From Phyllobacterium sp. OV277 (GTDB lineage: Bacteria; Pseudomonadota; Alphaproteobacteria; Rhizobiales; Rhizobiaceae): a DNA stretch of 64,000 nt. The notes beneath the pieces are model-generated. The model was given only the letters and a program-made list of their open reading frames with translations. It ran no database searches and was not told the origin of the DNA. The DNA lies in contig NZ_FNIY01000001.1 in NCBI RefSeq assembly GCF_900104355.1, positions 1,116,001 to 1,180,000 of the forward strand, read 5' to 3'. A program made the position numbers and the translations under genes. The stretch's first letter is position 1, and each line of letters begins with the position of its first letter. Below are positions 1 to 63,857 of this stretch, piece by piece.

Positions 1-891
1 ATCAGCATCGGCGGCAAGGACGTCGTCAACCTCAAGCCGAACCAGCGCAATATCGGCATGGTGTTTCAGGCCTATGCCCTCTTCCCCAACATGACAGTGG
101 CGCAGAATGTCGCCTTTGGTCTGAAGGTCGCCAAGAAGCCGCAAGCCGAAATCAACGCGACGGTGCATGAGATGTTGTCGCTGATCAAACTCGATCATCT
201 TGCCGAACGTTTCCCCTATCAACTGTCAGGCGGTCAGCAGCAGCGCGTTGCGCTTGCCCGCGCGCTTGCCACCAAGCCGCAGGTTCTGTTGCTTGACGAG
301 CCGCTGTCGGCGCTCGATGCAAAAATCCGTGTTTCCCTGCGCGAAGAAATCCGCGCGATCCAGCGCAAGCTCGGCATCACCACGATTTTCGTCACCCACG
401 ATCAGGAAGAAGCCCTGTCGATCTCCGACCGCATCGTCGTTATGTATGAAGGCCGCGCCGAACAGGTCGGTACACCATTCGAGATTTATAACCAGCCGGC
501 GACACGCTTCGTCGCTTCCTTCGTTGGCACGTTAAACACGCTGGATGCTGTCGTGCGCGATGCGGCAACAGGCGTTATTACCGTCGACGGCAAGGACGTC
601 TCGATTGGCTTGAAGCGCCTCAATGGCCACAAAACGGGCGATAAGATTTCCCTCGCCGTGCGCCCGGAAGCCGTCAGTCTTGGCGAAGCAACCGACAAGC
701 GTGAAACAACACTGGACGGCCGCATCAACAGCGTGCACTTCCTCGGCTCGGTCATCCGTATCCGCGCATCGCTTGGCGAAAACATCGTCTCGTTCGACAC
801 GTTCAACAACCCAAGCGCCCCCCCACCCACACCGGGCGAAGACGTCAAGGTCAGCCTCGCCGCCAAGGATTTGCTGGTTCTGGAGCATTAG
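1..891 (+). CDS. ABC transporter ATP-binding protein, MalK/PotA-like (5' end outside window)
   Basis: This is the ATPase subunit of a binding-protein-dependent importer; the reading frame is open from base 1, so the Walker A region lies upstream of the window. Visible in order are the Q-loop (MVFQAYALFPN, bases 58-90), the signature LSGGQQQRVALARAL (near 223-267), Walker B LLLDEPLSALD (near 286-318) and the H-loop FVTHDQEEAL (near 388-417). A C-terminal extension of about 120 residues follows, as in the TOBE domain of importers for polyamines, sugars, iron or phosphonates. The substrate cannot be read from this subunit alone, and the permease and binding-protein genes are not in the window. 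Confidence 0.9.
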   Translation: MSIGGKDVVNLKPNQRNIGMVFQAYALFPNMTVAQNVAFGLKVAKKPQAEINATVHEMLSLIKLDHLAERFPYQLSGGQQQRVALARALATKPQVLLLDEPLSALDAKIRVSLREEIRAIQRKLGITTIFVTHDQEEALSISDRIVVMYEGRAEQVGTPFEIYNQPATRFVASFVGTLNTLDAVVRDAATGVITVDGKDVSIGLKRLNGHKTGDKISLAVRPEAVSLGEATDKRETTLDGRINSVHFLGSVIRIRASLGENIVSFDTFNNPSAPPPTPGEDVKVSLAAKDLLVLEH

Positions 892-1758: not shown

Positions 1759-2925
1759 TCAGCCTTCAATCGCTTCATCCAGCAGTTTCAGCGCTGCTTT
1801 CTTTGTCAGTTTGACCGGGTTACCGCCCGCAGTCGGATCGACTATGGCCATGTCGGCAATCAGCTCTTTCTGCTTCTTGCTCATGCTCAGATCCTTGATC
1901 AGGCCGGGCAATGTGTGCGGCACTTTCAGCTCCTTGCGCAGCTTGATAATCGACTTGGCAAAGCCATCGAACCCACCCTTGATGCCGATATAGTTGGCGA
2001 GCCGTCCAACGCGCTCCTCCACCGCATCGCGGTTGAACGCCAGTACATAGGGCATGAACACCGCATTGGTCATGCCGTGATGGGTATCATAAAGCGCGCC
2101 GATCGGATGCGACAGGGAATGGATCGCGCCGAGACCTTTCTGGAAGGCCGTAGCACCCATCGCAGCGGCACTCATCATATGCGCCCGCGCCGTCAAATCT
2201 TTGCCATTGGCATAGGCTTTCGGCAGATTTTCAAAGACAAGCCGAATGCCTTCAACGGCGATACCATCGGCCATCGGATGATAGCCCGGTGCGCAATAAG
2301 ACTCCAGGCAATGCGCCAGCGCATCCATGCCAGTGCCTGCCGTAATGAAGGCTGGCATACCGACAGAGAGTTCCGGATCGGCGATAACAATCGCTGGTAG
2401 AAGTTTTGGATGGAAGATGACCTTCTTGGTGTGGGTCTCTTCATTGGTGATGACACCGGCGCGGCCAACCTCGGAGCCAGTTCCCGCCGTTGTCGGCACC
2501 GCGATGATCGGCGCAATCACGTTGCTATTGGCGCGCGTCCACCAGTCATCGACATCCTCGAAATCCCAGACCGGCCGGGTCTGGCCCGCCTGAAAGGCAA
2601 TGAGCTTGCCAAGGTCAAGCGCCGAGCCGCCGCCAAAGGCGATAACGCCGTCATGCTTGCCCTTTTTGAACACGGCAATACCGGCGGTCAGGTTGGATTC
2701 AACCGGGTTTGGCTTCACCTCGGAGAAAACACCATAGGGGATTTTCGCATCATCGAGGATTTTCAGCGTGCTTGCCACAACGGGAAGTTTGGCAAGTCCG
2801 GGATCGGTGACGAAAAGCGGCTTCTTGATGCCGGTTGCTTCGAGAACTTCAGGCAGTTCCTTGATGCGGCCCGCACCGAAGCGAACGGTGGTTGGATAGT
2901 TCCATTTGGAAATCAGTTTGCTCAT
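1759..2925 (-). CDS. Iron-containing (group III) alcohol dehydrogenase
   Basis: 388 residues, the usual length for the family. It oxidises a primary alcohol (or reduces an aldehyde) with NAD(P). The nucleotide-binding GGGSALDLGK is near residues 98-107, followed by TTAGTGSEV (145-153). The metal-ligand set is complete: Asp201 and His205 in DALAH, His269/His273 in HSLSHP and His283 in THHG. It is the last gene of the minus-strand cluster, 20 bases after the aldehyde dehydrogenase. That order suggests it oxidises an alcohol whose aldehyde the neighbour then converts to acid, possibly gamma-glutamyl-ethanolamide or a related amide. The natural substrate is inferred only from context. Confidence 0.93.
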   Translation of the reverse strand: MSKLISKWNYPTTVRFGAGRIKELPEVLEATGIKKPLFVTDPGLAKLPVVASTLKILDDAKIPYGVFSEVKPNPVESNLTAGIAVFKKGKHDGVIAFGGGSALDLGKLIAFQAGQTRPVWDFEDVDDWWTRANSNVIAPIIAVPTTAGTGSEVGRAGVITNEETHTKKVIFHPKLLPAIVIADPELSVGMPAFITAGTGMDALAHCLESYCAPGYHPMADGIAVEGIRLVFENLPKAYANGKDLTARAHMMSAAAMGATAFQKGLGAIHSLSHPIGALYDTHHGMTNAVFMPYVLAFNRDAVEERVGRLANYIGIKGGFDGFAKSIIKLRKELKVPHTLPGLIKDLSMSKKQKELIADMAIVDPTAGGNPVKLTKKAALKLLDEAIEG

Positions 2926-2945
2926 TGTGTGTCTCTTTCAGAAAG

Positions 2946-4331
2946 TCAGATCGCTTCGCGCAGGTGGAAGGATTTTGGTCGGGTCAGATTGCCATAACCG
3001 ATTGCAGACATGGCACCGCCCTTGCCGGTTTCCTTGACGCCGGTCCACACCAGCGCGGGATCGATATAATCGCAGCGGTTCATGAAGACTGTGCCGGTTT
3101 CGATCTTGTCGCCGATATCAGCAGCCCGGTCCGTGTCGGTGGTCCAGAGCGAAGCCGTCAGGCCGTATTGGCTGTCATTCATCAGCGCCAAGGCTTCCTC
3201 GTCATTGCGCACCTTCATAATGCCGACAATGGGGCCAAAGCTTTCCTCACGCATCACACTCATCTGGTGATCAACACCGGTGAGCACTTCGGGCGCAAGA
3301 TAGGGCGATCCCGCCTTGTCATTGGCAACGCTCATATTGACATGCGCCTTTGCACCCTTGCGCAAGGCTTCCGCCTTCTGCTCGCGGATCAGTTCGGCAA
3401 AGCGTGTCTGCGCCATCGGTCCCATAGTCGTTGCCGCATCCAGCGGATTGCCGACCACATACTGCTTGGTGAGGTCAATAAACCCGTCAACAAAACGGTC
3501 ATAGACATCCGCATGCACATAGATGCGCTCGATGCCGCAGCAGCATTGGCCGGAGTTGAAGAAAGCGCCATCGACCAGATTGGCAACGGCGTGATCCAGA
3601 TTGACATCCGGCAACACATAAGCCGGGTCCTTGCCGCCAAGCTCAAGCCCGAGCGTCATGAATGTCCCCGCAGCCGCCTTCTCGATGGCGCGCCCACCAC
3701 CGACGGAGCCGGTGAAATTGACATGATCAATGCGGCCCGAACCCAAAAGCTTTTCGGTCTGCGCATGGCCAAGCACGATGTTCTGGAAAACACCCTTCGG
3801 CAATCCGGCCTTTTCGAAAGCCTGCGCAAAGCGCTCACCCACAAGCAACGTCTGCGCCGCGTGTTTGAGGATGACGGTGTTGCCAGCCATCAGCGCCGGG
3901 ATGATCGTGTTGACGGCTGTGAGGTATGGATAATTCCATGGCGCAATGACCATGACCACGCCAAGCGGCACATGCTTGATGTAGCGCCGAAAGCCCGGTC
4001 TGTCGTTTTCAATGATAGGCGCAAGCGCCTGTTCAGCAATCTTGACCATATAACGCGTGCGCTCTTCAACGCCGCCCTTTTCCCCGCCGTAACGCACAGG
4101 ACGGCCCATCTGCCATGCGATTTCAGGCACGATCTCGTCGTTCATAGCAAGCAGTGCATCCAGTGCCGCAAGGCAGAGCTGGCCGCGCTCGGCAATGCTC
4201 GTTTGCAACCAACTTACCTGCGCCAGCTTCGCCGCTTCCACAGCGGCATCAATCGCCTTATCAGTTGCAATGGGGCGTTCCGCATAAATGGAACCGTCAA
4301 TGGGGGTGATCAGTTTGACCGTCTCGGTCAT
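2946..4331 (-). CDS. NAD(P)-dependent aldehyde dehydrogenase
   Basis: 461 residues from the ATG at 4331, chosen because the protein from there (MTETVKLITPIDGS) aligns with a normal aldehyde dehydrogenase N-terminus. The frame continues upstream but only into sequence antisense to the preceding intergenic region and gene end. Catalytic residues are present: Asn133 in APWNYP, Glu230 in LELGGKDP, and the nucleophile in GQCCC near residue 264. FTGSVGGG near 206-213 belongs to the cofactor fold. It sits between the Fe-alcohol dehydrogenase and the glutamine-synthetase-like ligase, a position equivalent to PuuC in the gamma-glutamyl-putrescine pathway. The exact aldehyde is unknown. Confidence 0.93.
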   Translation of the reverse strand: MTETVKLITPIDGSIYAERPIATDKAIDAAVEAAKLAQVSWLQTSIAERGQLCLAALDALLAMNDEIVPEIAWQMGRPVRYGGEKGGVEERTRYMVKIAEQALAPIIENDRPGFRRYIKHVPLGVVMVIAPWNYPYLTAVNTIIPALMAGNTVILKHAAQTLLVGERFAQAFEKAGLPKGVFQNIVLGHAQTEKLLGSGRIDHVNFTGSVGGGRAIEKAAAGTFMTLGLELGGKDPAYVLPDVNLDHAVANLVDGAFFNSGQCCCGIERIYVHADVYDRFVDGFIDLTKQYVVGNPLDAATTMGPMAQTRFAELIREQKAEALRKGAKAHVNMSVANDKAGSPYLAPEVLTGVDHQMSVMREESFGPIVGIMKVRNDEEALALMNDSQYGLTASLWTTDTDRAADIGDKIETGTVFMNRCDYIDPALVWTGVKETGKGGAMSAIGYGNLTRPKSFHLREAI

Positions 4332-4413
4332 GGGGAAACCTCTAGTCTGTGTTTTTTTAAAACTGGACCTGTCCCGCAACTTGAAATCGCGGGACAGGCT
4401 TTTGGTGTGATCT

Positions 4414-5790
4414 TCAATACCGTTCGAAACCGCGATGCAACTCCCAATCGGTGACGCGGCGGTCATATTCGAACTGTTCCCACTTGGCCGTATGCACATA
4501 GTGCTCGACCACATCTTCGCCGAGTGCCGTTTTGAGCATTTTGGATTTCGCCAATGTGTCGGTGGCTTCGCGCAAAGTTTTTGGAATTTCGCGCAGCTTT
4601 GCGCCACCATAGGCGTCGCCCTGGAACGGCTTGTCCAATTCCAGCTTCTCGTCGATACCGGCAAGACCCGAGGCGATCAAACCGGCAAAGGCGAGATAGG
4701 GATTAAGGTCTGCACCGCCGATACGGCATTCAATGCGGATGCCCTTGGTGCCCTCACCGCACAGGCGGAAACCCGCTGTCCGGTTATCAAGACTCCACAC
4801 ATTCTTCGTCGGCGCGAAGGTGCCCGCCTGAAAGCGCTTGTAGGAGTTGATGTAGGGCGCGAGGAAGAAGGTGAAATCATCGGCATATTTCAGCTGACCC
4901 GCCACCCATTGCCGCATTAGCGGCGACATGGTGTGTTCGGCATTCTTGTCGAAGAACAACGGCGTCTTGCCATCGGCACTCCACAGGGAATTGTGGACAT
5001 GGCTGGAGCTACCGGCCAGCGAATAATCATATTTTGCCATGAAGGTGATCGCCTTGCCCATCTGGGTGGCAATTTCCTTGCAGCCGTTTTTCATGACGAC
5101 ATGACGATCCGCCATTTCAAGCGCTTCGGCATAGCGCACATTGATTTCTTCCTGACCCGGACCCCACTCGCCCTTGGAATTTTCGACAGGAATACCCGCA
5201 TCAAACAGACCATTGCGGATGGCGCGCATAACGGCGTCTTCCTTGGTGGTCATCTGGATCACATAATCCTGAATGTAGGGGGAAGCAGTGCTCATGCCCT
5301 TCCAGTGTTTGGCCCGGGCGCTCTCATAGGTTTCGTCAAAGAGATAGAATTCCAGCTCCGACGCAAAATAGGCGAGATAGCCACGCTCTTTCAGTCGTGC
5401 GAGCTGACGCTTCAGGATTGCGCGCGGCGAATGGGCGAGGTCCTCATGATGGTGATGATCGAGAATATCGCACAGGACCAGCGCACATTTTTCCAGCCAT
5501 GGAATATGGCGGATGGTGGAAAGGTCAGGCTTGATGACAAAGTCGCCATAGCCCTGTTTCCAGCTGGCAGCCTTGTAGCCGGGCACCGGCTCCATATCGA
5601 TATCATTGGCCAAAAGATAGTTGCAGCCATGGGTCTCGTCATGGGCAGATTCGACAAAAAAGCTCGCATGAAAGCGCTTGCCGATCAGGCGGCCCTGCAT
5701 ATCGACGAAGCAGGCCAGCACCGTGTCTATTTCGCCATTGGTAACGTGGCGCTTTAATTCGTCGAAACTCCAATGTCCGGGCATTATCAT
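4414..5790 (-). CDS. Glutamine-synthetase-family gamma-glutamyl ligase (GlnA-like, PuuA-like)
   Basis: 458 residues with a beta-grasp N-terminus and a full glutamine synthetase catalytic domain. ELEFYLF carries the metal-binding Glu near residue 145, PGQEEINV lies near 210, and SSSHVHNSLW and the arginine-rich NRTAGFR follow. It would use ATP to join the gamma-carboxyl of glutamate to an amine. Its operon partners (permease, alcohol and aldehyde dehydrogenases, amide hydrolase) point to an alternative amine substrate, as for PuuA (putrescine) or Streptomyces GlnA4 (ethanolamine), not ammonia assimilation. The C-terminal adenylylation region typical of housekeeping GlnA is not obvious. GAGG just upstream of the ATG at 5790 supports the start. 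Confidence 0.9.
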   Translation of the reverse strand: MIMPGHWSFDELKRHVTNGEIDTVLACFVDMQGRLIGKRFHASFFVESAHDETHGCNYLLANDIDMEPVPGYKAASWKQGYGDFVIKPDLSTIRHIPWLEKCALVLCDILDHHHHEDLAHSPRAILKRQLARLKERGYLAYFASELEFYLFDETYESARAKHWKGMSTASPYIQDYVIQMTTKEDAVMRAIRNGLFDAGIPVENSKGEWGPGQEEINVRYAEALEMADRHVVMKNGCKEIATQMGKAITFMAKYDYSLAGSSSHVHNSLWSADGKTPLFFDKNAEHTMSPLMRQWVAGQLKYADDFTFFLAPYINSYKRFQAGTFAPTKNVWSLDNRTAGFRLCGEGTKGIRIECRIGGADLNPYLAFAGLIASGLAGIDEKLELDKPFQGDAYGGAKLREIPKTLREATDTLAKSKMLKTALGEDVVEHYVHTAKWEQFEYDRRVTDWELHRGFERY

Positions 5791-5864
5791 CTATCCTCAA
5801 GCAGAAATGTGATCAGGGTCAAAAGTCAGGGCAACCGGCGCAAGCCGGTCGCCCCATCTTGCAA

Positions 5865-7445
5865 TCAGCTTCTTTCACCCACAGCCTTTTCGGCAGCAGC
5901 GATTTCCGCGGCGCGCTTGGCCACGGCATCGCCAATGGGCGGCCCCTGAAAGCGGCGGCGTTCAAAGCCGAACCAGACAATGGCCGTCACGATAAGGAAG
6001 CCCACGGTGATATAGAGCGCCCATTCATTCGGTGGCTGGATGCCAAGAACGAAGATCAGTGCCATGGCAAGGATCGATAGGACAGCGAACAGCTTGAACA
6101 GGCCTTCACCCAGATTCCATGGTCCCATCTTGTTCCATTTCGGTGTGCCCCAGGCAAAAAGTCCCAAGGCAATCGGAATAGCGAAGGAGAAGAACAGGAA
6201 GATGACCGTGCAGGAAACGACGATCGTATACACAGGCGTATCGCCAATCGTCACAAGCGAAGAACCCCAGACAAACAGCACGGAGAGCGTTGCGCCCGTC
6301 CATGTGGCGGCGACCGGCGTGCGGTATTTCGGGCTGACCTTGGAGAGGACGCTCGAAGCCGGAAGCCCCTTGTCACGGGCAAAGGCGAAGATCATGCGCG
6401 AGACGGACGTCACCGTCGCAAGACCGCACAGGAACTGGCAGATGAAGATCAGGAAGTAGAGAATATCCTTCACCAGCGGATTGACCTGTTCATTCATCGC
6501 CCAGAAGAAAACGTTCCAGCCCTGAGATGCAGCAGCGTCCATGCTTGGCAGCATCAGCACGAACGAGCACAGCATGATGTAGCCGAAAACAGCAGACCAG
6601 AGCACCGAGGAGATCATGCCGCGCGGCACTGAATGGGCGGCCTTGACGGTTTCTTCCGACGTATGAGCCGAAGCATCATAACCGGTGATCGTATAGATCG
6701 GCAGCAACAGGCCAAGCAGGAATACCCAGCTTTGCGAAAGGGTTGGCCAGACGGATGCGCCGGTCAATGTCCCATCCGCTGCCATTGTTGGTTGGCCCGA
6801 ATAATTTCCGAATGTGAAGAGCCGCGCAAAATCATAGGTATCAGCGACGGAGAGGCACACCACGGAAAGCGCAATTGCGGTTACAAAGATCAGGTAACCG
6901 GAAAAGTCCGTGAGCTTGGCAGTGAGACCGATGCCCATATGGTTGATCAGGGCTTGAATACCGGTCAGGACGACAAGGAAAAGGATACGAACCGTTGTCG
7001 TATCTTCCATGCCGAGATAACCGCCGAATGCACCGACAAAGAAGTAGTAGGTGCCGACATTGATGGCACCCAAAACCGTGATGAGACCGAGGAGGTTGAA
7101 CCATGCGGTCAGCCAGCCCGTGCCGCGATTGCCGAGGATTGAGCCCCAGTGGTAAAGCCCGCCCGCTGTCGGATAGGCCGAGCTGATCTGCGCCATGGCA
7201 ATGGCGAAAACCGCCGAGACAAGACAGCCGAGCGGCCAGCCGATGCCGATAGCAGCACCACCGGCACCGGAGGTTGCCTGCGCCAGCGAATTGATGCCGC
7301 CGGACAGAATGCAGATAATCGAAAATGAAATGGCAAAGTTCGAGAAACGGCTCATGCGCCGTTCCAGTTCCTGGGCATATCCCATGCCGTGGAGGACTTT
7401 GGTGTCCTCCGACTTATCAACATCAGTATAATCTTGGTGTGTCAT
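5865..7445 (-). CDS. APC-superfamily permease, amino acid/choline transporter (ACT) type
   Basis: 526 residues from the ATG at 7445 (a GTG nine bases further upstream is possible). The N-terminal GYAQELERRMSRFSNFAISF is the hallmark start of the amino acid/choline transporter branch, which includes yeast Hnm1 (choline, ethanolamine) and Uga4 (GABA). About twelve hydrophobic segments follow. The glycine-rich ITGYDASAHTSEE lies after the sixth segment, as in the family's conserved loop. It imports the presumed amine or amino acid used by the downstream ligase and dehydrogenases; the exact substrate is unresolved. It is 74 bases downstream of the ligase-cluster partner at 7501. Confidence 0.88.
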   Translation of the reverse strand: MTHQDYTDVDKSEDTKVLHGMGYAQELERRMSRFSNFAISFSIICILSGGINSLAQATSGAGGAAIGIGWPLGCLVSAVFAIAMAQISSAYPTAGGLYHWGSILGNRGTGWLTAWFNLLGLITVLGAINVGTYYFFVGAFGGYLGMEDTTTVRILFLVVLTGIQALINHMGIGLTAKLTDFSGYLIFVTAIALSVVCLSVADTYDFARLFTFGNYSGQPTMAADGTLTGASVWPTLSQSWVFLLGLLLPIYTITGYDASAHTSEETVKAAHSVPRGMISSVLWSAVFGYIMLCSFVLMLPSMDAAASQGWNVFFWAMNEQVNPLVKDILYFLIFICQFLCGLATVTSVSRMIFAFARDKGLPASSVLSKVSPKYRTPVAATWTGATLSVLFVWGSSLVTIGDTPVYTIVVSCTVIFLFFSFAIPIALGLFAWGTPKWNKMGPWNLGEGLFKLFAVLSILAMALIFVLGIQPPNEWALYITVGFLIVTAIVWFGFERRRFQGPPIGDAVAKRAAEIAAAEKAVGERS

Positions 7446-7500
7446 CGTACTCACGTTCCCCGTTATTTTTGAGAGATTTCTAACGTCAGATACCAGTCAT

Positions 7501-8301
7501 TCAGCGTATGTTTGCCGCCTTCCCCATTATGGAAAGCGGCCCTTGGGCAATTTCCTTCAAAAGGACCGAGAGTATCCCGGCCCATGTTTTTTCTTCTTTT
7601 GTATTGGTGATGAGATCGTTGCGGATCTCGATCATGACCGCCGCAAGGCCATGCGCCGAGGCATGGCGTTCCAGCGTGTAATAGACCCGGTCAGCGGGCG
7701 AATAGGGCTCGTTGATACCGACACAGAATTGATCCAGTGCCTGCAAGCCCGCAATCAGCGGCGCGGCGACCTGATCATATTCGTCATGGATGATGCCGAT
7801 GTGCCAGGGGCGTTCGACGCCGCGATAGACAGGCGTGAACGAATGCACCGCGACATAAACAGGCGCTGGAAAACCCTTCGTCGCGCGCGCCTTTGCCAAT
7901 TGTTCAATCGCCTGATGATAGGGCTGATGCGATAGCGCTATGCGCCGCCGCTTTTCTGCCTCGTCCAAATCCACATTATCAGGAACGCTGGTGAGTTCGC
8001 TGGTAGCTGGGATCAGGTCATGCGCCTCAAGCGGCCGGTTGCAATCAATGATCAGCCGCGACACACAGGATTCGACCAGCGGCGCATCGAGCAGCGCGCT
8101 CATCACCTGACTGACACCCAGCGCACCGGGGTCCCAGGCTATATGCTTTTGTAAATCACCGGCCTCAAGTCCAAGACGACCGTATGGCGCGGGGATATGA
8201 TTGGATGCATGATCGCAGAGTATGATAAACGGCGAGCTGCCATCGGGGTTGGATACCCGAACCGGCTCCCAGACACTTTGCGTGGCCTGCGATAATCCCA
8301 T
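7501..8301 (-). CDS. N-formylglutamate amidohydrolase family enzyme (cluster copy)
   Basis: 266 residues of the HutG/FGase family, zinc-dependent hydrolases that release glutamate from N-formylglutamate. Family signatures are LCDHASNHIP near the N-terminus, RLIIDCNRP, AVHSFTPVYRG and MIEIRNDLI near the C-terminus. There are no histidine-degradation genes nearby. As first gene of the minus-strand cluster it could cleave a gamma-glutamyl amide, the step done by PuuD in the putrescine pathway; that is inference. A second, more distant paralogue is at 62967-63857. Start is the ATG at 8301. Confidence 0.88.
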   Translation of the reverse strand: MGLSQATQSVWEPVRVSNPDGSSPFIILCDHASNHIPAPYGRLGLEAGDLQKHIAWDPGALGVSQVMSALLDAPLVESCVSRLIIDCNRPLEAHDLIPATSELTSVPDNVDLDEAEKRRRIALSHQPYHQAIEQLAKARATKGFPAPVYVAVHSFTPVYRGVERPWHIGIIHDEYDQVAAPLIAGLQALDQFCVGINEPYSPADRVYYTLERHASAHGLAAVMIEIRNDLITNTKEEKTWAGILSVLLKEIAQGPLSIMGKAANIR

Positions 8302-8436
8302 TTTGCCCTCTTCGGCAATTTGTACTTTACATTACATTTTGTATTTTTATTTCCACTCTCGTATGATTTGATACATAAGTCACAAAATTGTCAAATGCGA
8401 AAATCGCGATTCTGAACTCTGTTCGAAAGAAGTTTG
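8302..8436 (+). promoter_or_regulatory. Divergent control region between amide hydrolase cluster and RpiR regulator
   Basis: 135 AT-rich bases separate the two divergent starts, enough for back-to-back promoters and an operator. Near-repeats of TTTGTA/TTTACATT lie at 8320-8350 and a TATGATTTGATACATA partial palindrome at 8362-8377. These are possible RpiR sites but I cannot choose between them. GAAAGAAG before the ATG at 8437 is the regulator's ribosome binding site. Confidence 0.4.
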
Positions 8437-9270
8437 ATGGGGACCAGTATTTCCGAACTGATCAGCGAGAAAATCGATGCCATGTCGGCCTCGGAACGCA
8501 AGGCCGCGCAGACGCTCATCGCCAACTACCCGCTGATCGGCCTGCGCACAGTGGCCGAATTTTCGGCTCAGGCGGGGGTGAGTTCACCGACGATCCTGCG
8601 TTTCGTCTCACGCCTCGGCTTCCAGAGTTACCCCGAGTTTCAGCAGGCGTTGCAACAGGAACTGGCGGCGCAGATTCAGTCGCCACTCAATCGCACGACA
8701 ATCGTTCAATCATCAAGGGAAGGCGCCGCCTACCCACTGATGGAAGCAGCCATCGAGAACATCCGAGAAACGTTTCATCACCTCTCCACCCAGCAATTGG
8801 ATGATGTCACAGACGCACTCAGCCGAACCCGCACCCATGTCTATCTGCTTGGCGGACGCTTCACCGATCCAATCGCCATCTATATGGCGGCGCACCTGAA
8901 AATCATCCGCTCCGGCGTCACCCATCTCACGGGACAGGAAAGCAACTGGCGCGATCAGCTGATCGATATGGGCAAGAAGGATGTCCTCGTTATCTTCGAC
9001 ATCAGACGCTATCAGGACAGCCTTATCCGCTTTGCCGAGAAGGCACAGGCACGCGGCGTGGAAATTGTTTTGATCACCGATCAGTGGCTCTCACCCATCG
9101 CCCGTTTTGCCCGCCATGTGATTGCGGGACGCACGGCAGTGCCCTCGCCATGGGACTCCTCCACCACGCTTTTTCTCATGGCTGAAACACTGATTGCCGG
9201 GGTGACGCAGAAGCTGCAAAACAGCAGCGCCGAGCGCATCAGCGACATGGAACAGTTGCGTGATGGCTGA
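8437..9270 (+). CDS. MurR/RpiR-family transcriptional regulator
   Basis: 277 residues: an N-terminal RpiR helix-turn-helix (about residues 1-77, with TVAEFSAQAGVSSPTILRF as recognition helices) and a C-terminal SIS domain (about 110-270). The frame also has a TTG three bases upstream, but the ATG at 8437 is better spaced from GAAAGAAG. It is divergent from the gamma-glutamyl ligase/permease cluster and most likely controls it. The SIS domain normally binds phosphosugars; here it may have been recruited for an amine-derived effector. Confidence 0.88.
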   Translation: MGTSISELISEKIDAMSASERKAAQTLIANYPLIGLRTVAEFSAQAGVSSPTILRFVSRLGFQSYPEFQQALQQELAAQIQSPLNRTTIVQSSREGAAYPLMEAAIENIRETFHHLSTQQLDDVTDALSRTRTHVYLLGGRFTDPIAIYMAAHLKIIRSGVTHLTGQESNWRDQLIDMGKKDVLVIFDIRRYQDSLIRFAEKAQARGVEIVLITDQWLSPIARFARHVIAGRTAVPSPWDSSTTLFLMAETLIAGVTQKLQNSSAERISDMEQLRDG

Positions 9271-9371: not shown

Positions 9372-10790
9372 ATGCAGCAAGCTGACATTGGATTGATCGG
9401 CCTTGGCGTCATGGGTGCCAATCTGGCGCTCAACATCGCCGAAAACGGCTATCGCGTCGCGGTTTTCAACAGAACGGTCGAAAAGACCCACGCCTTCCAT
9501 CAGGAAGCAGGCGCGCTCAAAGACAAGATCATTCCTTGCGAAACGCTGGAGGAACTCGCCAAGAACATCCGCGCACCACGCCCGATCATCCTGATGGTGA
9601 AAGCTGGCGACGCCGTTGATGAGCAGATCGCCGCGCTAAAACCGTTCCTTGCCAAGGAAGATATCATCATCGACGCGGGCAATGCCAACTTCCACGATAC
9701 TGTCCGCCGCCTGAAGGAACTCGGCGCCAACGATCCGACATTCGTCGGCATGGGTGTATCCGGCGGTGAAGAAGGCGCACGCCATGGCCCGTCCATCATG
9801 GTTGGCGGCACGCCCGAATCCTATGCGCGCATCGAGCCTGTACTAACCGCGATTTCGGCAAAATATGAAGGCGAATCCTGTTCGGCATTGCTCGGCCCCG
9901 ATGGCGCAGGTCATTTCGTCAAGACGATCCACAATGGCATTGAATATGCCGACATGCAGATGATCGCCGAAATCTACGGCATTTTGCGCGATGGCCTCGG
10001 CCTTGCACCTGCCGAGATCGGCAAGATTTTCGACAAGTGGAACAAAGGCCCGCTCAATTCGTACCTCATCGAGATCACCGCAAAAGTTCTTGCCGCGACC
10101 GACAAGGATACCGGCAAACCAGCCGTCGAAATCATCGTCGACAGCGCGGGCCAGAAGGGCACCGGCCGCTGGGCGGCCATTGAGGCGCAAATGCTCGGCA
10201 TTCCCGCCACCGGCATTGAAGCCGCCGTTGCCGCCCGCTCCATTTCCGCCCTTGGCGGCGAACGTGCCAAGGCGGCAAAAGCCTATGCGTCGCTCGGCAC
10301 ACCAAAGCTCGCTGGCACCGACCAGTCATTCATCGATGCACTGGAACAGGGCCTGCTCGCGGGTAAAATCGCCGCCTACGCTCAAGGCTTTGCCGTGATG
10401 TCCGGTGCTTCGGCAGAGCATGGCTGGAATATCCCGCTCGACACCACAGCCAAAATCTGGCGCGCGGGTTGCATTATCCGCTCACAATTCCTCGATGAAA
10501 TCGCCTCGGCTTTCGCCGGCGGCGGACAGGACAATCTGCTGCTCGCCCCTTCCTTCGTCGAACGCATGAAAACCGCTTCGAACGCCCTGCGCGATGTGGT
10601 GGCAAAAGCGGCCCTTGCCGGTCTGCCCACCCCTGCACTCGCCGCCGCCCTCAGCTATTTCGATGGCTACCGTCAGGCACGTGGCACGGCCAATCTCATT
10701 CAGGCCCAGCGGGACTTTTTTGGCGCGCATGGCTTCAAACGTGTGGACAAGGGCGGTGATTTCCACGGTCCATGGTCTGATATTGGGTGA
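9372..10790 (+). CDS. gnd: 6-phosphogluconate dehydrogenase, decarboxylating
   Basis: 472 residues, the full long form. It converts 6-phosphogluconate to ribulose 5-phosphate with NADP in the oxidative pentose-phosphate pathway. The Rossmann motif GLGVMGANLALN is at residues 8-19, GVSGGEEGARHGPS and HFVKTIHNGIEY carry the substrate and catalytic residues (Lys and Asn), and the family signature DSAGQKGTGRW is near 255. The ATG at 9372 is preceded by AAGGA. It stands alone between the RpiR gene and a repeat-filled gap. Confidence 0.96.
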   Translation: MQQADIGLIGLGVMGANLALNIAENGYRVAVFNRTVEKTHAFHQEAGALKDKIIPCETLEELAKNIRAPRPIILMVKAGDAVDEQIAALKPFLAKEDIIIDAGNANFHDTVRRLKELGANDPTFVGMGVSGGEEGARHGPSIMVGGTPESYARIEPVLTAISAKYEGESCSALLGPDGAGHFVKTIHNGIEYADMQMIAEIYGILRDGLGLAPAEIGKIFDKWNKGPLNSYLIEITAKVLAATDKDTGKPAVEIIVDSAGQKGTGRWAAIEAQMLGIPATGIEAAVAARSISALGGERAKAAKAYASLGTPKLAGTDQSFIDALEQGLLAGKIAAYAQGFAVMSGASAEHGWNIPLDTTAKIWRAGCIIRSQFLDEIASAFAGGGQDNLLLAPSFVERMKTASNALRDVVAKAALAGLPTPALAAALSYFDGYRQARGTANLIQAQRDFFGAHGFKRVDKGGDFHGPWSDIG

Positions 10791-62966: not shown

Positions 62967-63857
62967 CTATTCCGCAGCAAGCGGAACATCGAGGAAATGG
63001 AAGTCGGGCAGCGACACCAGATCGGCCAGAAACTGGCTGATATCCCGCTGCAACTGATCAAACCCCGATTTGCGTTCATAATTGTGCTCGTTGAGATAGA
63101 GCCCGCGATTGACCTCGATCTGCAGCGCATGGAAGCGCTTTAGCGGACGCCCGTAATGCTCGGTTATATAGCCCCCGGCATAGGGTTTGTTGTGGGCAAC
63201 CGCATAGCCCATTTCGCGCAAGAGATCGATTGCAGCATTGGCGAGCTCTGGCGAACAGCTGGTGCCAAAACGATCGCCGATGATGAAATCCGGTCGCAAA
63301 CCACTATCGGGGAAGCGAATGCCTGTTGGCATTGAGTGGCAATCAATCAGCACCCCGTAGCCAAAGCGGCTGCGTGTTTTCAGCAGCACCTCGGCAAGCA
63401 GCGCATGGTATGGCTTGTAGATTGTGTTGATACGTCCAAGCGCTTCCTCGACAGGCAATTTCTGCGCATAAATCTCCTGCCCTTCGCCGACGAGCCGCGG
63501 AATGGTGCCAAGACCACCGGCCACTCGCGTAGAATTTGCGTTGGCGTAGGAGGGAAGCGGATCGGAGAACATTTTCGCATCGAGCTCATAGGGCTCGCGA
63601 TTGACATCGAGATAGGCGCGCGGGAATTGCGCAGCCAGCAAGGGCGCACCCAGCATGACGCTGGCGGCAAACAGCTGATCGACAAAGCAGTCTTCCGATC
63701 GGCGAATCGTTTGTGCATCCAGCTGTGATTGCTTGAGGAAAGCTGGGGGATAAACCTGGCCGCTATGGGGCGAATTGAAAACGAAGGGAATGCGTTGTTC
63801 AGCCGGCCGGCGCAGTTCATAGGGCAGCTTGTCGGGGAAATCGCGCTCGAGGGTCAT
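62967..63857 (-). CDS. N-formylglutamate amidohydrolase family enzyme (second copy)
   Basis: 296 residues. PFVFNSPHSGQVYPPAF near the N-terminus, PRAYLDVNREPYELDA and CHSMPTGIRFPDSGLRPDF hold the zinc and substrate residues, and LQIEVNRGLYLNEHNY ends the domain. It differs from the copy at 7501 (30 residues longer; different motifs around the metal site), so the two are paralogues, not duplicates. No hut genes are adjacent. It may act on N-formylglutamate or another N-acyl glutamate. Confidence 0.9.
   Translation of the reverse strand: MTLERDFPDKLPYELRRPAEQRIPFVFNSPHSGQVYPPAFLKQSQLDAQTIRRSEDCFVDQLFAASVMLGAPLLAAQFPRAYLDVNREPYELDAKMFSDPLPSYANANSTRVAGGLGTIPRLVGEGQEIYAQKLPVEEALGRINTIYKPYHALLAEVLLKTRSRFGYGVLIDCHSMPTGIRFPDSGLRPDFIIGDRFGTSCSPELANAAIDLLREMGYAVAHNKPYAGGYITEHYGRPLKRFHALQIEVNRGLYLNEHNYERKSGFDQLQRDISQFLADLVSLPDFHFLDVPLAAE

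Follow-up and report, generated by a model that had tools for sequence, protein, structure and literature searches.

The stretch considered here (hereafter the window) is 64,000 nucleotides of DNA from Phyllobacterium sp. OV277 (NCBI RefSeq assembly GCF_900104355.1, contig NZ_FNIY01000001.1, positions 1,116,001 to 1,180,000 of the forward strand), and it holds a cluster of six genes whose products most probably serve the utilisation of ethanolamine through gamma-glutamylated intermediates. Five of the genes lie on the minus strand, with that of an RpiR-family regulator placed divergently from them. An initial annotation had proposed these genes in this order and orientation; all six proved to be intact, and the names they had received are borne out by their Pfam assignments:

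1759..2925, minus strand: iron-containing alcohol dehydrogenase, 388 amino acids; predicted gamma-glutamylethanolamide dehydrogenase (PF00465, 171 bits; PF25137, 145 bits)
2946..4331, minus strand: aldehyde dehydrogenase, 461 amino acids; predicted to perform the step from gamma-glutamyl-aminoacetaldehyde to gamma-glutamylglycine (PF00171, 399 bits)
4414..5790, minus strand: glutamine-synthetase-like ligase, 458 amino acids; predicted ethanolamine gamma-glutamylase (PF00120, the glutamine synthetase catalytic domain)
5865..7454, minus strand: APC-superfamily permease, 529 amino acids; predicted ethanolamine importer (PF13520, 171 bits; nearest to TIGR00907/ACT)
7501..8301, minus strand: FGase-family hydrolase, 266 amino acids; predicted gamma-glutamylglycine amidohydrolase (PF05013, 147 bits)
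8437..9270, plus strand: divergent RpiR-family regulator with HTH_6 and SIS domains (PF01418, 48 bits; PF01380, 70 bits)

The aldehyde dehydrogenase gene starts with the ATG at 4331, and the RpiR gene probably with the ATG at 8437, directly after the listed TTG at 8434.

The ligase shares 56% identity over 371 aligned residues with Csal_0679 of Chromohalobacter (PDB 5dm3), and kinship to this protein is taken here as one mark of membership of the gamma-glutamyl ethanolamine pathway. With the Brucella melitensis protein 11zs its identity is 73%, and with 48 other PDB entries among the matches listed it does not exceed 30%. Its glutamine synthetase (GS) fold, and the invariant residues found in a 30-sequence alignment at the places that we assume to bind metal and glutamate, could speak for one more glutamine synthetase that has nothing to do with its neighbours. 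Such a reading is nevertheless very improbable and true glutamine synthesis was rejected, since the Glu of the flap is replaced by Phe, the genome holds three further GS-family genes and the neighbours of the ligase are conserved across many species. The flap replacement was read from the sequence, because the predicted structure of the ligase is of low confidence in the flap region (residues 314-326), and it is the same as that reported for GlnA4 in the excerpts of the literature used here.

The proposed pathway has a scheme in common with the E. coli putrescine route, in which PuuABCD glutamylate the substrate, oxidise it twice and hydrolyse the product. In the window, however, an alcohol dehydrogenase takes the place of the PuuB oxidase, and an FGase-type enzyme that of the PuuD-type hydrolase. 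A Puu-type route through gamma-glutamylputrescine, or one for another polyamine, could be suspected from the 204 bits that the ligase obtains with the GGputSyn model, but this is far under the cut-off of 650, and another GS-like gene of the strain obtains a slightly better score (228). This low score, together with the absence of a PuuB-type flavin oxidase among the six genes, which include instead the FGase hydrolase and the alcohol dehydrogenase, led to the rejection of the putrescine route, to which we assign next to no probability.

The gene content of the cluster is that of systems already described in print, as far as the excerpted portions of the papers cited in this paragraph report them. 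Table 2 of a 2022 review (PMC9397018) gives PF00120, PF00465, PF00171 and PF05013 for the C. salexigens gamma-glutamyl-ethanolamine pathway, and the joint occurrence of the last three families, a further mark of membership, was found in the cluster. According to PMC10132767, closely related genes have been demonstrated to act as a pathway for ethanolamine in two species, C. salexigens and Agrobacterium tumefaciens (strain C58), whose ethanolamine gamma-glutamylation operon (Csal_0678-0679 and neighbours) has the same four enzyme families; C. salexigens differs in having the ethanolamine-binding TRAP protein Csal_0678 (PMC10132767), whereas the cluster of the window encodes one APC permease. 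The same paper describes a Phaeobacter operon composed of genes for RpiR, an amidohydrolase, a TRAP transporter, a ligase, an aldehyde dehydrogenase and an alcohol dehydrogenase, the enzymes of which were increased in cells grown with phosphorylethanolamine, and whose TRAP binding protein binds ethanolamine with a Kd of 7.9 uM. This operon of Phaeobacter sp. MED193 (MED193_10021-10056) shares with the window the RpiR gene, the gamma-glutamylglycine amidohydrolase, the ligase and the dehydrogenases of the aldehyde and alcohol steps, but carries the TRAP transporter EtoVWX where the window has its permease. In Streptomyces coelicolor, GlnA4 makes gamma-glutamylethanolamide, and steps of a dehydrogenase, an aldehyde dehydrogenase and a formylglutamate-amidohydrolase-type enzyme have been proposed to yield glycine and glutamate (PMC6529630). 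The GlnA4 cluster (SCO1610-1615) thus has the same ligase product and the same proposed later steps; it differs in lacking the permease, its regulator EpuRI is described as a repressor, and its orf2 is a short-chain dehydrogenase according to a figure legend, while PMC9397018 puts SCO1611 beside PF00465.

Because the ligase is akin to Csal_0679, the four Pfam families are the same and the Phaeobacter operon matches, the ethanolamine reading is well supported, and by sequence comparison we put the probability that the cluster belongs to this known pathway of ethanolamine utilisation by gamma-glutamylation at roughly 0.88. The cluster is an ordinary relative of the described route; its uptake protein is a different one, while the occurrence of its regulator had been reported before; a literature search for the exact gene combination found no paper. 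This phospholipid-headgroup recycling route is thereby extended to Phyllobacterium and Mesorhizobium.

In the mechanism proposed, the APC permease would bring in ethanolamine, which the GS-like ligase, judging by its similarity to Csal_0679, would couple to glutamate with ATP to form gamma-glutamylethanolamide. The iron-containing alcohol dehydrogenase and then the aldehyde dehydrogenase would convert the alcohol to the aldehyde and the acid, gamma-glutamylglycine, from which the FGase-type hydrolase would free glycine and glutamate, the latter being recycled. The divergent RpiR protein would most likely act as the repressor of the operon at two TGTA-N8-TACR candidate sites, leaving them once its SIS domain is occupied by an intermediate derived from ethanolamine. 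The enzymatic part of this scheme (glutamylation, two oxidations and hydrolysis, probably of ethanolamine, to glycine and glutamate) had been put forward in the initial annotation and coincides with the published pathway of Chromohalobacter, Agrobacterium, Streptomyces and Phaeobacter as excerpted. The eut pathway, which proceeds through ethanolamine ammonia-lyase, was rejected because EutB (PF06751) had 0 matches in the genome of the strain (completeness 99.79), E. coli giving the sole match among 14 control genomes.

In the iron-containing alcohol dehydrogenase, D201, H205, H269 and H283, presumably the metal ligands of the family, are invariant in 80 sequences (the window protein and those of 79 loci). 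In the aldehyde dehydrogenase, E231 and C265 (in P0002 numbering, which runs one ahead of that of the protein), which we take to be the catalytic pair, are invariant in 76 sequences; a PDB sequence search at the strict threshold of 1e-70 gave no match for this enzyme. The hydrolase, formerly annotated simply as an amide hydrolase, can be assigned to the FGase (N-formylglutamate amidohydrolase) family, PF05013; it obtains only 21.8 bits with the HutG model (cut-off 279) and matches PDB 2odf, the hypothetical protein Atu2144, at 192 bits. Another PF05013 match lies at 63093-63788 on the minus strand of the window, and there are four in the whole genome.

Relatives of the ligase were sought in one scan of named genomes with exact peptides of the window ligase, a sample skewed to close relatives; 107 were found, and the best 80 loci were retained for the counts. 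The six genes occur in the same order, with RpiR divergent, in 47 of the 80 loci, and such an arrangement is therefore not due to chance; conservation of gene order had been suggested beforehand as a check. Taken singly, the alcohol dehydrogenase was found in 79 loci, the aldehyde dehydrogenase in 75 (one of these matches, in L074, being weak and far from the cluster), the FGase in 66, RpiR in 64 and the window-type permease in 49. Among named genomes, Phyllobacterium sp. 628 and the AN3 strain of P. myrsinacearum have the closest ligases, both 99% identical to the window ligase, which places the window in Phyllobacterium, and at least 94% identity was found in 20 of 20 genomes searched in this genus, that of the strain included. 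Outside the genus, 11 of 19 genomes searched have the ligase at 58-72% identity. Five distant loci (L066, L071, L078, L081 and L082) have one more GS-like gene adjoining the cluster and encoded on the other strand, and L082 has a GMC oxidoreductase at 5585-7249. Three scanned neighbours (L067 5314-7077, L070 7357-8784 and L061 13266-14213) gave no Pfam family.

The transporter varies in kind among these loci. The 80 loci divide into 48 with the ACT-type permease of the window, 15 with a second APC permease (ethanolamine-permease type), five with TRAP DctM and DctP, one with both APC types and 11 with none of the three transporter types at the score used. The window permease had no match in a PDB sequence search at E 0.001, and its best NCBIfam model is TIGR00907 (2A0304), at 200 bits with a cut-off of 598; this is also the best model for the window-type permease of L026. 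For the four second-type permeases that were scanned (L022, L023, L067 and L075), the best model is in each case TIGR00908, ethanolamine permease; their scores of 364-376 bits fall narrowly short of its cut-off of 381.75. Among TRAP binding proteins, the one tested, from L079, matches 4uab at 492 bits, an entry which we take to be Csal_0678 with ethanolamine. The window permease occupies the slot held in some relatives by an ethanolamine-permease-type or TRAP transporter, and this swapping of transporters around constant enzymes, which is the best evidence here for ethanolamine as the substrate, suggests that the ACT-type permease imports ethanolamine. Hnm1, the choline/ethanolamine carrier of yeast, is presumably a member of the same ACT group. 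The enzymes of the operon are thus kept while transporters of at least three families replace one another, and a probable ethanolamine importer can be named.

Several points weigh against the assignment to ethanolamine. We know of no activity for any protein of the cluster, and a literature search on Phyllobacterium and ethanolamine returned, judging by title, no paper on the subject. The nearest model of the window permease is TIGR00907 and not the ethanolamine-permease model, so that its substrate is read only from its position. None of the three transporter types was seen in 11 loci, although in one of these, L044, the alcohol dehydrogenase is followed by a binding protein and an ABC-type permease, and another, L064, is a contig of 3.9 kb. 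Beyond the genus, eight of 19 genomes gave distant GS-family matches only. In two loci a class III aminotransferase lies directly upstream of the ligase (L061 7490-8863 and L074 7547-8917); neither RpiR nor the FGase was found in these loci, and the ligase family may, given this, serve other amines too. Another small amino alcohol would also fit the same chemistry: alaninol, 1-amino-2-propanol, 3-aminopropanol or serinol could be considered, the order of the enzymes would be compatible with any primary amino alcohol whose hydroxyl is terminal, and the difference in nearest permease model is in favour of such a substrate. We regard this as unlikely, given that the window ligase is 87-88% identical to the ligases of L019-L023, whose loci carry the ethanolamine-permease-type transporter, and that a secondary alcohol such as 1-amino-2-propanol would yield a ketone, with no task left for the aldehyde dehydrogenase.

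In the divergent regulator, PF01418 (HTH_6) and PF01380 (SIS) both score above cut-off, which places it in the RpiR family. Its motifs were examined in the cluster loci, in five RpiR genes of the strain's own genome and in PDB matches. The positions of GGRxT and DxRRY are invariant in 65 RpiR sequences, and all 64 cluster orthologues carry D[IV]RRY in their SIS domains, at the place aligned with the S-x-S-G loop, which we take to be the phosphosugar-type SIS loop and which the cluster proteins lack. The paralogue L115 has YSLSGE at this place; the contrast is limited, as L115 is alone among the five own RpiR genes in having the loop, L116 reading EARRY and L117 and L119 showing neither. The solved RpiR regulator domain 3sho has W-R-Y there. 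We infer that the effector of the cluster RpiR may be something other than a phosphosugar.

A tentative proposal, somewhat more likely to fail than to hold as a whole, joins regulator and permease: the SIS domain of this RpiR branch would no longer read phosphosugars, its GGRxT and DxRRY pocket binding instead an ethanolamine-derived intermediate, and the ACT-type permease would be an ethanolamine importer of an apparently undescribed kind. Candidate ligands would be carboxylate- or phosphate-bearing, namely gamma-glutamylethanolamide, gamma-glutamylglycine or phosphoethanolamine. No description of an ACT-type permease as ethanolamine importer was met, no literature search having been aimed at the permease. 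The novelty of RpiR control in a pathway of this sort, suggested at the outset, does not hold in that form, because an RpiR gene already stands in the Phaeobacter operon (PMC10132767, 2023, legend of Fig. 5C) and accompanies most of the relatives counted here. Among the papers listed on RpiR with ethanolamine or gamma-glutamyl, PMC10132767 alone was recognised as treating this pathway; the presence of RpiR beside it is therefore already in print, and the mechanism of the switch is not already reported in the excerpted text.

The region between the RpiR and FGase genes contains the sites at which such a switch could act:

8360..8375, minus strand: candidate operator 1, 16 bp, TGTA-N8-TACG, conserved in Phyllobacterium-type loci
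8321..8336, minus strand: candidate operator 2, TGTA-N8-TACA, 39 bp from operator 1
8390-8395, minus strand: conserved TTTGAC upstream of candidate operator 1, present in 22 of 22 loci

Candidate operator 1, TGTATCAAATCATACG, is exact in 21 of the 22 Phyllobacterium-type loci (window included) and has one mismatch in the other, while the outer letters of candidate operator 2 and its 39-base spacing to operator 1 are invariant in all 22. Mean column identity is 0.997 in the first block and 0.884 in the second, against 0.736 in the remaining 100 positions of the gap; the blocks were chosen by eye from the alignment and then counted, with a reversed pattern as the sole control against chance. In the strain's genome TGTATCAAATCATACG has one exact copy and two copies with two mismatches, and the reversed pattern none. 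In the other 43 loci with both genes, ATGAAATCAT is present in the intergenic region of 32 and absent from that of 11, and the second-block pattern TGTA-N8-TAC[AG] was found in only one, which speaks against generality and makes the operator pair a feature of the Phyllobacterium group. A sigma-70 scan of 8250-8500 gave 0 consensus promoters (0.6 expected from shuffles). A testable candidate operator pair for RpiR can in this way be named.

Two neighbouring features were judged by eye. A 6-phosphogluconate dehydrogenase-like gene lies directly behind the RpiR gene, at 9372-10790. On the other side, window positions 58-891 and L127 2858-6892 hold what looks like an ABC transporter, made up of a binding protein, a pair of permeases and an ATPase; this set ends at the left edge of the window, adjoining the cluster.

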